A program made the position numbers and the translations under genes. The notes beneath the pieces were generated by a model. It saw only the letters and a program-made list of their open reading frames with translations. It did no database searches and was not told the DNA's origin. From Lachnospiraceae bacterium (GTDB lineage: Bacteria > Bacillota > Clostridia > Lachnospirales > Lachnospiraceae), in the NCBI GenBank assembly GCA_030526195.1, contig JAUNDG010000022.1, forward strand, positions 1 through 41,560: a DNA stretch of 41,560 nt, in the 5' to 3' direction. Shown here in pieces: positions 27,042 to 36,542 of the stretch (positions are counted from its first letter, which is position 1; each line of letters begins with the position of its first letter).

Positions 27042-30000
27042 TCAGCATTTCCGGATGACAACGGACGCCGCATCCACCGCTCCCAGATGGGTGGTGATGA
27101 TCTCATGTTCGGACATCCGGGAATAGAGTCCCATGAAATGCCCGTCTACCGCGTAAATGCCGGTGGTGTTGTAGAACGACCTGAGGCTTAAAACAGCCTC
27201 ATTTTCTACTGAGGACACATCCTCCGACTCAGCCTCGCGGGTCAGCGCCTCCGCCCCGCTCTTTTTAATAAGAAAATGGCCGCTTTCCATGGGACGGATT
27301 TTCTCCTGGCAGATATACCCGTGATCGGCATGCGCCTGCAGGGCCGCGGCCCACTCGTCCTCGGTGCAGAGGCTTCCCATGTAGACACCCTTTGAGCCAT
27401 AGGCGCTCACCGGCTTCAGCACCCAGCGGTCCTTGGCGTTTCGCACTGCCTCGCTGCCCGCCTCATCCTTCGTCAGATACATGGTTTTGGGCATATGGCC
27501 GGTCACCAGCCGACGCTCACTATCGGTCAGAGTGTTCAAAAATGCCTCGTCCTGCACGGCCATCATGAAGCCTTTGTCGTGGATCACCTGGGTTTCAAAG
27601 CCCCCAAGGAGGCACACGCGTCCGGCTCGATAAGCCGCCAGCAGTGCCGTCGCCTCACGGGGCATGGCCAGAATGTCCGAAGTCACAGCCCGGCGGTAAA
27701 TCGCCCCCACCATCCGGCCATCCGGCAGGCGCAGGGCCTCGCCGTCAAAATCAAGCTCCCGGATATCCGCCACCACGCAAGGTTCCCCGGCCCGCTCGAA
27801 AGCATCGCGATAAGCCTCAAATTCGTCGAGACTGCTGGCATTTTCGAGGTAGTCCACGATCGCGATAACGGGCTGATCGTCCAAATCCGATGCACCGGTT
27901 ATCTCATCCGGTCGCGGCGTATCTTCACAGTGACATTGTCTGTCAGCGCCATCATTTTCAATTGCCTGAGTCATCGGATTGATCGTGGCCAACGACATAA
28001 GCGAACGCCGCACCCGGCTCTCCCGCCAGATCCGCACATAGGCCTTCGCCAGGGTATCAAAAAGCTCAAAGCTCTCGACCTGCAAGTCCTCATCGCGGCA
28101 ACGCTCACACAGCGCCTCGTACAGCGGCGTCTGCTCAAAGGCCCGCACCAGCTCCCGATCCTCGATCATGCCGCTGGACCCGTCCGTGTTGAACTCACAG
28201 AACATGAAATCCCCGGTCTTATCATCATAGAAAATGTCCGACCGCAGCATGGGCAGATGAGCTCCGTACCCCGGGTCCTGCATAATAAGCTCATGCATCA
28301 GAGGCGAGAACTCATAGTACTTTCGGAAATGGGGCTCCTGCTTGTAATACGCCATGGCTTTCCGCCCGATGGAGGCCATATCCGTCGCGATCCGTTCGAA
28401 AATGGCGATGTCCCGCTCTCCGAAAATGCGGGGATTGTACACGCCCTTCACCGGCTGACCGCCCACGGTGACACCGTTTCCGGCCAGGTAATCTTGCATG
28501 GCCTGTACCCCTTTTACATGAACAAACGGATCGGGTGCCATCATGCGATGCTCAGCATGCTTGCCCGCCGCGCAGCCGTCATCAACGCCGTTACTCATCA
28601 GCTCCCTGTGATGGATACCAATCGCCGCGCAGCCGTCATCGCCGTCACTCATGGCGTCATATTCGTCCGCATCCATGTCGTCCGGACAGGCCATTAAGTT
28701 ACCAAGTGCGCCATCAAGCACAAGATCCATGGACAGGCGATTTAAGTCTGCCACTGTGGATAAGGGAGACGGATCAAGCGGACGGCTCATGACAAGATGA
28801 CCATTTTCGGCTAGACCTGCGCGATAAAGGGCGAGATACATCCGCTCCTTTTCCGGCAGTCCGGCCATTGCCAGATCCACCAGCTCGGCGATGGCCTGTC
28901 CCAAAGTTACAGAACCGTACATCTCATGGGCACAGAGATACCACCAATCGGGATGCGCCTCGTGGGCCGCCCGCAGGCGGTTGAATGTCTCGTAGAGATC
29001 AAAGATGCCGGCACTCATCTCACCACGCGCATCGCACACCCTATCATTGAGTTCCGCATCAGTTTCAGCCTGCGCCTGATTATCTGCTGATATCACAGCA
29101 AGGCTTTCAAACCACCGCTTCTCCAGCTGCTCCAGCTCATCCAGCTTAAGATACAGCCCCTTCACGATCATGGCATAAGCCATGGCCTCATTCAAGGGCA
29201 AGCTGTCCGCCACCCGCAGCTCCAGGAAACTCTTCAGCCGGATATACGGGAACAGCATACTCTGAAAATGGGTCAGCGCCTCATCACTCAGGTCCGCCTC
29301 ACCCATGATCGTGCCCATGGTTGCCTCGGAGTATACCTCCGAACACCCATCAGCATCCGATTCAGAAACCTCTTTTTCTCTGTTTGCCGATGCCACCCTC
29401 GCGCTCTTGCTGAAATCTTCCGACGCAGCGATCGGCTCAGCATCTATCGCCCCAGCTGCTTGCGCTTCCGTCGGCAGTGTCTCCGCCGGCCGCACGATCA
29501 CAGGGGCCGCCTCCAGAAAATGCGCATACCCTTCAAAGGTCATGGTCCCGTCATTTTCTAAAAATGACGCGGCGTTCACCCGATCCTCATCGGTGTACTG
29601 CCAGATTTTCATCCGCAGAAGGGCTTCTTTGGCAGCCTCATTTTCGAAAATGGAGGTGTTCTCGCCCAGCACAGCCAGAAGGGGCACGATACGGTAAAAA
29701 GCCCGGTAAAGACGACCCATGTGGGCCTCTGAATGATAATCCATGGAGATATGAACGGAGGCAGTGCCCTTCATCATGTGAGGGCCGAGGCCATAGAGGG
29801 ACTCAAAATAGCGGTACATGAAGGCGTACCGATCCTTCGGGATCATGGGCAGATCATCAATGGATACGGCAGGCTGATACCCCTCCCGCACAAGATGAGC
29901 ACCGCGCCGACGCAGGATAGGATAAAGTTCCTCTTCCGCCTTCTCGATAATGGCCCGGACAGCCATGAGATCCGACAGAGCCTTGGCGCTGAACTCAAGC

Positions 30001-30266
30001 TGGGCCGCCGGCTCAATGGTGATGGCCATATCGGGGCGGGTCAGACCGATGAGATGCCCGTGGGTGCGGGTCTCGTGTTCATAAAGCGGGGACAGTTCCG
30101 CAAGGATCTCCTCCACCTCATCATAAGGCAAAGTCTTGCCGGTTCTGTCGTCCACGATGAACTGCTCGATCTCCAGCCCGAAAATGTCCTCCCCGGAGGT
30201 TTTACAGGCTTTCTGCCAGCTTGCGATCAGTTTGTTGTGATTTATTTTGTACGTGTTCGTCATCAT
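27042..30266 (-). CDS. Putative glutamate-cysteine ligase (GCS2-like) fused to an ATP-grasp ligase
   Basis: This 1074-residue protein appears to join two ligases. Residues 1 to about 500 resemble the plant/EgtA-type glutamate-cysteine ligase: GLEIEQFIVD (30-39), ITIEPAAQLEFSA (82-94) and FLELRVADSLPL. Residues about 580-1074 resemble the ATP-grasp part of glutathionylspermidine synthase-like proteins: EFNTDGSSGMIEDREL (691-706) and WVLKPVSAYGSKGVYMG (948-964). This differs from GshF, which couples a proteobacterial-type GshA to a D-Ala-D-Ala-ligase-like domain. Low-complexity inserts occur near 265-320, 530-575 and 765-800. The product would be a gamma-glutamyl thiol or amide; its identity is unknown. 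The tandem ATG start has only a weak ribosome site. The gene stands alone. Confidence 0.65.
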   Translation of the reverse strand: MMTNTYKINHNKLIASWQKACKTSGEDIFGLEIEQFIVDDRTGKTLPYDEVEEILAELSPLYEHETRTHGHLIGLTRPDMAITIEPAAQLEFSAKALSDLMAVRAIIEKAEEELYPILRRRGAHLVREGYQPAVSIDDLPMIPKDRYAFMYRYFESLYGLGPHMMKGTASVHISMDYHSEAHMGRLYRAFYRIVPLLAVLGENTSIFENEAAKEALLRMKIWQYTDEDRVNAASFLENDGTMTFEGYAHFLEAAPVIVRPAETLPTEAQAAGAIDAEPIAASEDFSKSARVASANREKEVSESDADGCSEVYSEATMGTIMGEADLSDEALTHFQSMLFPYIRLKSFLELRVADSLPLNEAMAYAMIVKGLYLKLDELEQLEKRWFESLAVISADNQAQAETDAELNDRVCDARGEMSAGIFDLYETFNRLRAAHEAHPDWWYLCAHEMYGSVTLGQAIAELVDLAMAGLPEKERMYLALYRAGLAENGHLVMSRPLDPSPLSTVADLNRLSMDLVLDGALGNLMACPDDMDADEYDAMSDGDDGCAAIGIHHRELMSNGVDDGCAAGKHAEHRMMAPDPFVHVKGVQAMQDYLAGNGVTVGGQPVKGVYNPRIFGERDIAIFERIATDMASIGRKAMAYYKQEPHFRKYYEFSPLMHELIMQDPGYGAHLPMLRSDIFYDDKTGDFMFCEFNTDGSSGMIEDRELVRAFEQTPLYEALCERCRDEDLQVESFELFDTLAKAYVRIWRESRVRRSLMSLATINPMTQAIENDGADRQCHCEDTPRPDEITGASDLDDQPVIAIVDYLENASSLDEFEAYRDAFERAGEPCVVADIRELDFDGEALRLPDGRMVGAIYRRAVTSDILAMPREATALLAAYRAGRVCLLGGFETQVIHDKGFMMAVQDEAFLNTLTDSERRLVTGHMPKTMYLTKDEAGSEAVRNAKDRWVLKPVSAYGSKGVYMGSLCTEDEWAAALQAHADHGYICQEKIRPMESGHFLIKKSGAEALTREAESEDVSSVENEAVLSLRSFYNTTGIYAVDGHFMGLYSRMSEHEIITTHLGAVDAASVVIRKC
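28567..28652. repeat. Direct repeat inside the fused ligase gene
   Basis: GCCGCGCAGCCGTCATC, followed by GCCGTTACTCAT or GCCGTCACTCAT, occurs at 28567-28598 and 28624-28652, 57 bp apart. It encodes the duplicated motif SxGxDDGCAA in the interdomain insert (about residues 540-568). Confidence 0.75.
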
Positions 30267-33598: not shown

Positions 33599-34975
33599 CT
33601 ATGAAAGCCCGATCATCTTCTCGGCTTTGTCAGCCACAGCTACGTCGCACTTGGCGCGAACCAGAATGCCCTCCGCCGTATAGTCTGCCATTTCCACAAT
33701 GGCATTTTCCATAAGATAGGAATGCACGGCCCCCTTGTCATAGGGAATCAGGAAATCCCGCACCACGGCACCGCTTTCCAGCTTGCCCAGGATCACCTCC
33801 GTCAGAAGCTCGATGGATGAAGCTTCCCGCGCGGAAATGTAAATGTTCTCGTTGCGATCCCCGGCCACGCTGCTTTCCTTCAAACCGCGCCGCGGGTACT
33901 CAATGGCCGGCTCCACACGGTCGGATTTGTTAAAGACCGTGATCATGGGAATGTGACCGGCCCCCAGATCCGCAATGGTCTGCTTGGTTACCTCGATGTG
34001 ATCCCGGCAATGGGGATCGGAGCCGTCCACCACCTGCAGCAGGAGATCTGCCTCCTTCACTTCTTCCAGTGTGGACTTGAAGGCTTCCACCAGAGCCGTG
34101 GGCAGCTTATGAATAAAGCCGACGGTATCTGATAAGAGGAAATGGCGCCCTCTTTCCACTTCAATCTTTCTCACCGTGGTGTCCAGTGTGGCAAAGAGCA
34201 TATCCGCCTCGAACACCTTGCGGTCTTCACCGGCCGTGTCCGGCACGTACCGATTGATCATGGCATTCATGATGGTGGATTTGCCTGCATTGGTGTAGCC
34301 AACCAGTGCCACCAGGGGCAGACCGGAATGCTGACGCTTCTTGCGCTGGGTCTCCCGTTCACGGCTCACCACCTTCAGTTCCTTGCTCAGTTCTGACAGG
34401 CGGTGATCGATGGTCCGTCTGTCGATTTCAAGCTGGGTTTCACCTTCACCCTTGCTGGACATGGAACCGGAGGCACCACCCTGACGGTTCTGGGTTTCCC
34501 ACATACCGATAAGACGGGGCTTTAAGTAGCGGAGCTTCGCCAGTTCAACCTGAAGCTTGGCTTCCCGGGACCGGGCCCGGCGCTCGAAAATCTCAAGAAT
34601 AAGACCTGTCCGGTCCATGACCGGCAGGTTCAGAGTCTTCTGAAGGTTCCGCATCTGGGAGGGTGACAGGGTGTCATTGAAAACAATCCGGCTCGCCTCC
34701 ATGGCCTCGGCATTTTCGCGAATCTCCTCTGCCTTGCCGGTCCCCACATAAAGAGCGGCATTCACCTTGGGCAGCTGCTGGGTCACGATACCCACCGGGT
34801 GCATCATGCAAGCCTCGGCCAGCTCCGTCAGCTCATCCAGCGAATGTAAAAAATCTTCTTCAGACGCATAACCGTCACCGGAGGTCTCCCAGACCCCCAC
34901 CGCCAGCACGCGTTCCTTCTCACCGCCCTCTTCCCGGCGGCTCCAAATATCATCAGCACCAAAAAATGCAGCCAT
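33599..34975 (-). CDS. hflX: GTPase HflX
   Basis: This 458-residue ribosome-associated GTPase splits stalled 70S ribosomes under stress. Family features are YVGTGKAEEI, the FNDTLSPSQMRNLQ segment, RRTIDHRLSELSKEL in the helical linker, the G1 loop GYTNAGKST, G3 DTVGFI and G4 NKSD. RQGGASGSMSSKGEGETQLE is the conserved Gly-rich linker. Length is normal. ATG 34975 has only a weak ribosome site (AACGGATAG), which may imply low translation. Upstream lies a long AT-rich region with a phased inverted-repeat array, so transcription control of this gene may be unusual. Confidence 0.94.
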   Translation of the reverse strand: MAAFFGADDIWSRREEGGEKERVLAVGVWETSGDGYASEEDFLHSLDELTELAEACMMHPVGIVTQQLPKVNAALYVGTGKAEEIRENAEAMEASRIVFNDTLSPSQMRNLQKTLNLPVMDRTGLILEIFERRARSREAKLQVELAKLRYLKPRLIGMWETQNRQGGASGSMSSKGEGETQLEIDRRTIDHRLSELSKELKVVSRERETQRKKRQHSGLPLVALVGYTNAGKSTIMNAMINRYVPDTAGEDRKVFEADMLFATLDTTVRKIEVERGRHFLLSDTVGFIHKLPTALVEAFKSTLEEVKEADLLLQVVDGSDPHCRDHIEVTKQTIADLGAGHIPMITVFNKSDRVEPAIEYPRRGLKESSVAGDRNENIYISAREASSIELLTEVILGKLESGAVVRDFLIPYDKGAVHSYLMENAIVEMADYTAEGILVRAKCDVAVADKAEKMIGLS

Positions 34976-35092: not shown

Positions 35093-35421
35093 TCAGTCCA
35101 TTTGTTCTCTGTTATTTGTTGTATGTTAGTTCATTCTGTCCAATCTTATCTCATACAATAGTGGACAGATAATATCGATTCATTATGTCAACTAACAGCT
35201 GTTTTTTCATTGTTTTATTCTGTCCATTATGAAAAAAGATTAATTTGGACAGACATGGTGATGACATTATGTCACCCAACATCAAATTCAAGCTATATTT
35301 TATCTGTCCAAAATCAAATTTCTGTCGAATGGACAGACTATCCAGGTTAACTTGCTTCCGTCAAACCATCTTGTTTCGTTATTTTGTCTGTCCAAAATCA
35401 AAATACTCTTGAATGGACAGA
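35093..35421. repeat. Array of phased inverted repeats TCTGTCCA-N19-TGGACAGA
   Basis: Four perfect copies start at 35135, 35219, 35303 and 35387. Each has 8-bp arms and exactly 19 bp between them. The start-to-start distance is exactly 84 bp each time. A degenerate copy (TCAGTCCA-N19-TGTATGTT) starts at 35093, 42 bp before the first. A second word, CATTATGTCA, also repeats at 84 bp (35181 and 35265) within the first two periods. Units three and four additionally share AAAATCAAA and GAA at the arm borders. The region 34976-35494 otherwise has no coding frame. The function is unknown: a multi-site operator or a transcribed hairpin array are both possible. Confidence 0.9.
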
Positions 35422-35494: not shown

Positions 35495-36502
35495 TTAAGT
35501 CGAGAACCGCCGTGTCAGTGTGGGCAGGATTTCCACGTTCACCACATGATGATACTTGTTTTCGATCTGGCCGATCAGATTATCCGCCGCCACACTGCCG
35601 ATGAAATAACGGGGAACATCCATGGTGGTAAGAGCAGGCTCAATGATCCGGGCCTCGGAAATGTTATCGAACCCCATCACCGCCACATCTTCGGGGATCC
35701 GATACCCCCGGAGCTTCAGCGCCTTGATGGCCCCGATGGCAATGGCGTCATTATCCGAATAATAGCAGCGCGCCAGCTTCTCGCCGGAATCGATCACCTC
35801 CAGCATATCCGCCATGGCATATTCAATGGACGGTGCCAGCTGGTGCGTGATGGCGTGGGACCGGGACATGCCGTTGTCATTGAGTGCCTTGTGGAAGCCC
35901 CGGGTTCGTTCCTCAAAGTTGGCAATGGTATAGGCTGATTGTAAATAGCCCGGTGTTTCCCGATACTGAGCGATGAGATAATTGGTGGCAATGTAGGCCC
36001 CCTGGAAATTGTTGATGAGGACGCTGTTGCAGGGATATTCCCGGCTCTGGGAGTCCAGCAGCGTGATGGGCATCCCCAGACTCATAAAAGCCCGCAGCTT
36101 GTCAGGCTTCATTTCCGTACCGACCAGAATGATCCCCACGCAGTCAGATCCTCTGATCTCTTCGAAAATGAGGTCCAGGTTGTCCAGTTTTTCATACACC
36201 TGCAGCATCCGCACGGGATAATTCCGTTTCTGACAGGCATTCACAAGTCCCTCCCATAATTCATCGAAAATGGGGTTGTAGGACAAAATGACGTTACTGC
36301 TTCTATAGGAAATAAAGTAAATCGACCCTTTTTTCTGGCTCTTGGCATTAATCCGTTCAAAATCATAACCGGCCTGCTCTGCTGCCTCTATGACGCGCTT
36401 CCGCGTATTGGTGCTGACACCGGGTTTGTTGTTTAACGCCATAGAAACGGCGGTTTCGGATAATCCCAGTTTCTTCGCCAGTTCTTTTGCCGTGATGCTC
36501 AT
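35495..36502 (-). CDS. LacI-family transcriptional regulator
   Basis: This 335-residue LacI/GalR-type regulator has an N-terminal helix-turn-helix and hinge (ITAKELAKKLGLSETAVSMALNNKPGVSTNTRKRV...) and a periplasmic-binding-protein-like sensor domain ending VMGFDNISEARIIEPALTTMDVP. The ATG at 36502 lies nine bases after GGAG; the ATG at 36511 touches that site. It is divergent from the sugar operon starting at 36693 and almost certainly controls it. The effector is probably the sugar or a phosphorylated intermediate. A palindrome with the central CG typical of LacI operators overlaps its own start region, implying autorepression. Confidence 0.92.
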   Translation of the reverse strand: MSITAKELAKKLGLSETAVSMALNNKPGVSTNTRKRVIEAAEQAGYDFERINAKSQKKGSIYFISYRSSNVILSYNPIFDELWEGLVNACQKRNYPVRMLQVYEKLDNLDLIFEEIRGSDCVGIILVGTEMKPDKLRAFMSLGMPITLLDSQSREYPCNSVLINNFQGAYIATNYLIAQYRETPGYLQSAYTIANFEERTRGFHKALNDNGMSRSHAITHQLAPSIEYAMADMLEVIDSGEKLARCYYSDNDAIAIGAIKALKLRGYRIPEDVAVMGFDNISEARIIEPALTTMDVPRYFIGSVAADNLIGQIENKYHHVVNVEILPTLTRRFST

Positions 36503-36542
36503 GTCCCGCATCTCCTTCCTTATTATTCATATATTCCAACAG

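Follow-up and report, generated by a model that had tools for sequence, protein, structure and literature searches.

Inverted CTGTCC repeats upstream of hflX in a Lachnospiraceae bacterium belong to a genome-wide family of extragenic arrays and may be double-stranded sites for a dimeric protein

Introduction

The region between hflX and a LacI-family regulator gene in a Lachnospiraceae bacterium carries four inverted repeats spaced at exactly 84 bp. An array of this kind might control a neighbouring gene, might be transcribed as a string of hairpins or might be left over from an old tandem duplication. The question is which of these readings, if any, accounts for its regularity. We have followed it through the window (the whole stretch of 41,560 nucleotides that was analysed), the genome to which the window belongs (2.54 Mb in 43 contigs) and sequences from other organisms.

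Results

An array of four perfect dyads

The features of the region are listed below.

33599..34975, minus strand: hflX, encoding a GTPase (TIGR03156, 423.8 bits); start about 160 bp from the array edge
35135..35169, plus strand: dyad unit 1, TCTGTCCA-N19-TGGACAGA, from the pattern search, 0 mismatches
35181..35193, plus strand: linker motif copy 1, CATTATGTCAACT
35219..35253, plus strand: dyad unit 2, TCTGTCCA-N19-TGGACAGA, 0 mismatches, 84 bp from unit 1
35265..35277, plus strand: linker motif copy 2, CATTATGTCACCC
35303..35337, plus strand: dyad unit 3, TCTGTCCA-N19-TGGACAGA, 0 mismatches, 84 bp from unit 2
35387..35421, plus strand: dyad unit 4, TCTGTCCA-N19-TGGACAGA, 0 mismatches, 84 bp from unit 3
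35495..36511, minus strand: LacI-family regulator gene; end about 73 bp from the array

A search allowing up to three mismatches (expectation 0.12 matches per shuffled window) finds exactly four units in the window, all of them perfect, and a scan for arrays with any arm shows that this is the only array there. The geometry given in the preliminary description is borne out: the start-to-start spacings are 84, 84 and 84 bp, the inner spacing is 19 in 4/4 units and CATTATGTCA recurs at 35181 and 35265, 84 bp apart. The location is also gene-free as described: no ORF reaches 100 aa between the start of hflX (34975) and the end of the LacI-family gene (35495), both of which lie on the minus strand. 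A further, degenerate unit had been placed 42 bp before the first. This has 5/14 core mismatches (CAGTCCA / TGTATGT, by eye), was missed by both three-mismatch searches and is excluded from our counts. Elsewhere in the window, positions 27042-30266 encode a 1074-aa protein that NCBIfam matches in its N-terminal part only (glutamate-cysteine ligase).

A family of arrays across the genome

A search of the genome for the dyad, as the preliminary description had proposed, uncovers a family. There are 18 perfect units with an inner spacing of 19 or 20, and the core CTGTCC-N20..25-GGACAG occurs 73 times, compared with once for a reversed control. All 50 of the core matches listed lie in or beside an array, a further 22 coincide with array units and one was not placed. 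When up to 3/14 mismatches are allowed, 79 units of the form CTGTCC-N20..24-GGACAG are collected outside genes in at least 12 arrays of 3 to 13 units, located on contigs C4 (two), C9, C14, C19 (two), C21 (two), C25, C28, C31 (the window) and C39. Among these 79 units, that at C4:78672 is degenerate and that at C39:32305, which sits within a small minus-strand ORF, is doubtful. Badly decayed units were missed because of the mismatch limit, and a decayed remnant is visible by eye at C39:239.4 kb. Four arrays (C9, C19, C21:144k and C25) lie less than 300 bp from a contig end and another contains a run of N, so that 79 is a lower bound and the true number is probably higher.

At least 11 of the arrays other than that of the window adjoin unrelated genes. 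The idea of a regulatory array specific to hflX is therefore not supported, and a local hflX operator was dropped as the main reading once the genome-wide search had shown further units. We class the family as intergenic mosaic arrays set apart by linker classes of near whole turns and by conservation concentrated in the half-sites.

Arms, loops and linkers

The arm core CTGTCC/GGACAG is perfect in 71/79 units, and its twelve positions are individually conserved in 77 to 79 of the 79 units on the left and in 76 to 79 on the right. The base just inside the core is A or G in 79/79 units on the left and T or C in 75/79 on the right. Loops between the 7-mers are 18-22 nt long, mostly 19 and 20, giving units of 32-36 bp in which the half-sites (inverted CTGTCC) are mostly 27-29 bp apart from centre to centre.

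The 67 linkers fall into length classes. The short ones are 29 (4 linkers), 30 (40) and 31 bp (1), so that 40/45 are exactly 30 bp long, and the longer ones are 40 (10), 50 (4), 51 (6), 58 (1) and 61 bp (1), the 58-bp linker depending on the doubtful last unit inside a gene in C39. Unit centres are therefore mostly about 63.5, 74, 84 and 95 bp apart, near 6, 7, 8 and 9 helical turns. Counted from 30 bp, the three longer classes each deviate by no more than 0.6 bp from a whole number of 10.5-bp turns (P = 0.0008 under a uniform model that omits the 58-bp linker). The fit to helical pitch is not sharp, with a mean residual of 0.21 bp at a pitch of 10.0 versus 0.27 at 10.5. The length classes may have perhaps few independent origins, and the 40-bp linkers look homologous: a GC palindrome, GCGGCC-NNN-GGCCGC, is present in 8/10 and degenerate in the other two.

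In 6/10 linkers of 50/51 bp there is a (C/G)ATTATGT at constant offset, followed by NAACC or similar. These six come from three arrays and two of them are window linkers. A (C/G)ATTATGTNAACC resembling the window linker motif is found at the same linker offset in the 84-bp arrays of C28 and C21:114k. The sequence TTATGTNAACY (window 35183-35193 and linkers in L030 and L026) resembles the XerD arm of dif, and the XerD-like pattern is slightly enriched (22 matches versus 14 in a control). A Xer/dif site was rejected as a reading, however, as the motif is without a XerC-like arm (by eye), and no sequence within three mismatches of a Firmicutes dif was found.

Taken together, the data lead us to favour, at slightly better than even odds (probability about 0.55), the reading that the window array belongs to a family of extragenic mosaic arrays specific to this species, with a layout like that of E. 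coli BIMEs and Neisseria NIMEs, whose unit is a double-stranded site for a putative dimeric protein.

Distribution outside this genome

In the own genome a strict unit pair matches 56 times on one strand and 59 times on the other. Among 391 other genomes of the order, four (G095, G214, G368 and G382) give one match each, as do four genomes in the control, and no array was found. This sample holds no other member of the genus, which was covered by a loose pattern only: 60 genus relatives give 0-11 matches (control 0-13) versus 53 in the own genome. One relative, G034, has 11 loose-pattern matches versus 2 in its control, and the 246,347 bases of it that were read (40 contigs, about 8%) contain one loose unit and no array. 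A separate scan looked for groups of at least three dyads that share an arm of any sequence; it detects 10/11 of the own loci, missing the short array in L069, and found no such group in 362,161 bases of G021, 385,890 of G015 and the same 246,347 of G034. The search of related genomes called for in the preliminary description turned up no array in the 391 genomes of the order, the genus being covered by the loose pattern. The regions upstream of hflX in eight relatives include none with the same neighbour (by eye).

GTDB r220 contigs contain three scattered matches to the exact pattern, which we estimate to be about chance level, and no array; the exact pattern would miss diverged arms. Viral contigs have no match to the exact patterns and the C14 array, the sole query, has none in plasmids or phages, and a phage or plasmid mobile element was rejected on these grounds. 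One of the three matching contigs, filed as Klebsiella (L036 2000-2290), contains many irregular copies of TGTCCA/TGGACA and is possibly foreign sequence. In a limited literature search we did not find a description of this array family.

Double-stranded site or hairpin

The arms could instead be stems. A REP/BIME-like or mobile family acting as RNA or single-stranded DNA hairpins, spread by a Y1 (RAYT-like) transposase or by plain duplication, might protect mRNA 3' ends or terminate transcription. The extragenic location fits, several arrays adjoin terminator-like hairpins (by eye) and the window array folds better than shuffles on both strands (z -3.8 and -4.1), but palindromes alone can yield such scores. 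Non-Watson-Crick arm pairs, in the assigned orientation, comprise 24 G-T, 5 A-C and 6 others, the excess of G-T over A-C being as a single-stranded hairpin predicts; 18/24 of the G-T pairs occur at the single innermost pair, largely in related units. Loop mirror complementarity is not clearly above the shuffled expectation at any of 9 positions, however, and the arms are conserved as sequence, beyond mere pairing. RNA does not need linker classes of near whole turns, and at least two arrays (C4 and C39) lie between convergent genes. The string of transcribed hairpins considered in the preliminary description is thus weakened by its loops while keeping the mismatch bias on its side. A known RNA family was set aside, there being no Rfam match at the gathering threshold over the window array and nine further array loci (L069 left out).

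REP/BIME elements are extragenic palindromes of 20-40 bp in regularly spaced mosaic arrays (PMC2817692, PMC3733652). The family is similar in having palindromic units of 32-36 bp in 12 arrays outside the flanking genes, and differs in its arms, which are held as sequence around a free interior. REP/BIME copy number is above 100 per genome, compared with our lower bound of 79 units. The end tags of REPs are rare here: GTAG/CTAC lies within 12 nt of 1/79 units on the right and 2/67 on the left, and CGTC/GACG of 2/79 and 3/67. The genome has two Y1_Tnp genes, as the hairpin reading would have it, but neither is flanked by repeats in the manner of a RAYT, since CTGTCC..GGACAG is absent from both loci (1.5 kb each side). 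Having failed both the tag and the transposase test, a REP/RAYT identity was rejected. Overall, the absence of extra pairing in the loops, together with the linker classes, points to double-stranded DNA, and we regard hairpins as an unlikely explanation.

Resolvase-type sites

A double-stranded site might also belong to a small serine recombinase, with each dyad as a candidate sub-site and the whole array as a multi-site, res-like platform. The TGTCC[A/G] of the arms fits the gamma-delta half-site TGTCYR. At C21:114k the array precedes, by 157 bp, a gene for a 200-aa resolvase with an HTH_7 domain. In the Tn3 family each res sub-site is a dyad made of two inverted half-sites of 12 bp, the centres of sites I and II are separated by 5 helical turns in general (range 4 to 7) and their phasing on the helix is important (PMC12217951). 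The likeness to our family lies in dyad sub-sites spaced by whole turns, whereas the arrays here have more sub-sites (3 to 13 units versus 3) and a recombinase gene stands beside only 1/12 of them (C21:114k). Of the three PF00239 matches in the genome (C21, C7 and C39:118 kb) only that in C21 adjoins an array, and there a terminator-like hairpin lies between array and gene. There is no CTGTCC dyad at the locus of the C7 paralogue (about 170 bp upstream covered) or in the 420 bp upstream of a 52%-identical relative. Additionally, the dyads have no conserved central dinucleotide (by eye) and a literature search for the half-site found nothing. Resolvase sites are, on this evidence, improbable.

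Genomic context of the arrays

The neighbours identified by profiles share no function: they are hflX, a YkoF-family gene, a response regulator, a homocysteine methyltransferase, DUF554, a beta-CASP protein, a permease and a biotin ligase, and two more neighbours have no Pfam match. A 264-aa gene without a Pfam match lies between the two arrays in C19 (L025 3476-4267). Five arrays (window, C14, C28, C21:114k and the first in C19) lie between codirectional genes, one C4 array and that of C39 between convergent genes (in C39 the upstream gene runs towards an 80-aa ORF on the minus strand) and the array at C4:78.6 kb between divergent genes. The C9, second C19 and C25 arrays reach a contig end, leaving one neighbour visible each. 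Unrelated neighbours in all three settings speak for a role in architecture and against a regulon.

This also bears on the possibility that the arrays are operators of a conventional repressor controlling the neighbouring genes, hflX included. The window array is indeed about 160 bp upstream of hflX and the C28 and C14 arrays are upstream of same-strand genes. However, neighbours such as hflX and the YkoF-family, biotin ligase, homocysteine methyltransferase and beta-CASP genes have no common theme, some arrays (C4, C39) lie between convergent genes and 3-13 sites per locus would be excessive, making a repressor a poor candidate.

Array orientation was assigned by the A-richness of the loops for most arrays, and by our own reading of linker landmarks for C21:144k, where it overrides the loop call, and for C39, where the loop call is near even. 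Array sense matches the GC-skew leading strand in 6/11 contexts, so there is no strand preference and a replication-strand bias was rejected.

Arms held, remainder drifting

All pairs of the 10 units of the 84-bp class were compared. Their arm cores differ at 0/144 positions within arrays and 0/396 between arrays (0/540 in total), whereas loops differ at 0.73 of positions within and 0.72 between, and linkers at 0.58 within and 0.59 between. Among 15 best-match pairs with 50-70% loop-plus-linker identity the arm core differs at 3/180 positions. Arms and linker length are held and the remaining sequence is freer. Fixed arms against about 72% loop and 58% linker divergence leave no room for an old duplication that simply decayed, short of selection on its arms. 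The drift of an 84-bp tandem duplication, which the preliminary description had offered as its alternative, therefore fails as it was put and was ruled out. Selection is not absolute, since some units decay (the C39:239.4 kb remnant, by eye).

Tandem growth is seen elsewhere, for example as 201-bp higher-order repeats in C21 and as a 50-bp direct repeat, 98% identical and with a terminator-like hairpin, on either side of the C4 array (L021 2932-2981 and 3463-3512). The 201-bp length is divisible by three, and two overlapping open frames on the minus strand, 300 and 327 codons long (L027 3217-4295), traverse the C21:144k array. We take both to be probably spurious because they overlap out of frame with each other and the longer one continues across a tRNA gene. 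A coding repeat was rejected because linkers of 29 to 61 bp with loops of 18-22 bp generally break frame.

The genome is generally repeat-rich. C25 has two more tandem arrays at about 11.1-11.7 kb with a 73-bp period and unrelated sequences (L175 10802-11019 and 11237-11402), the first containing the hairpin AGCAGGGCCCAATGGCCCTGCT. Other tandem repeats have periods of 72-73 bp (L167:16916 and L171:7231) or of 43, 46, 48, 66 and 130 bp. The way in which repeats form in this genome may thus account in part for periods near whole turns.

A neutral account, in which a repeat-prone genome makes tandem duplications and gene conversion or chance preserves the arms, would fit these other repeats and the 201-bp copies in C21. 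The absence of arm differences against 58-73% divergence elsewhere in the 84-bp class is unlike neutral drift, however, and gene conversion would require implausibly short tracts of 6-8 bp, so that we consider this account very improbable.

Discussion

We suggest that the conserved unit is a double-stranded DNA site made of two inverted CTGTCC half-sites. Units follow one another head to tail, and with linkers of 30 bp, or of 30 bp plus about one, two or three turns, every unit would present about the same face of the helix. A putative sequence-specific dimeric protein could occupy each dyad, with adjacent dimers touching across the linker, and the resulting regular nucleoprotein stretch might bend, stiffen or insulate the DNA between genes. 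Its role would be architectural or topological, not the control of a single gene. The arrays would grow by tandem duplication and then drift at nearly all positions outside the arms, with linker length also kept. Cooperative binding on one face had been proposed in the preliminary description for the window array alone; the invariant arms, the free inner bases and the near whole-turn phasing, also found at other loci, support this part, and a specific link to hflX is not supported.

Two further systems have a comparable layout. The neisserial intergenic mosaic element (NIME) arrays with dRS3 have 6-bp arms, a variable interior and an intergenic location (PMC3898611), and the family here likewise consists of short dyads with conserved 6-bp arms in intergenic arrays. 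It differs in sequence and inner spacing (CTGTCC arms with N20-24 here, ATTCCC-N8-GGGAAT in dRS3), in copy number (79 seen here, about 700 there), in having linkers in near whole-turn length classes and in that no integrating phage was found in the searches of viral contigs and phages. In sopC (parS_F) of the F plasmid, twelve 43-bp repeats each contain a 16-bp inverted repeat bound by a dimer (PMC9178275). Here too the array is tandem and the repeat unit contains an inverted repeat, dimer binding being known for sopC and proposed by us for this family, whereas the arrays occupy at least 12 chromosomal loci and the dyad is longer.

A more specific version of our reading is possible, although we put it forward tentatively: the arrays may be a dedicated, previously undescribed chromosome-organising system restricted to this lineage, in which the putative dimeric protein forms regular one-faced filaments at the 12 or more intergenic arrays and selection maintains their geometry, with invariant half-sites set 30 bp plus whole turns apart.

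What identifies REPs and other known intergenic repeats is a unit or hairpin conserved as a whole. In the present family it is mainly two 6-bp arms and their spacing that are kept, and the sequence thus seems to read out the geometry of a protein. If this binding protein exists, one unit should suffice to fish it out, and the natural linkers of 30, 40, 51 and 61 bp are a ready-made phasing experiment. Finally, the family offers a case of one species gaining its own chromosomal landmark.
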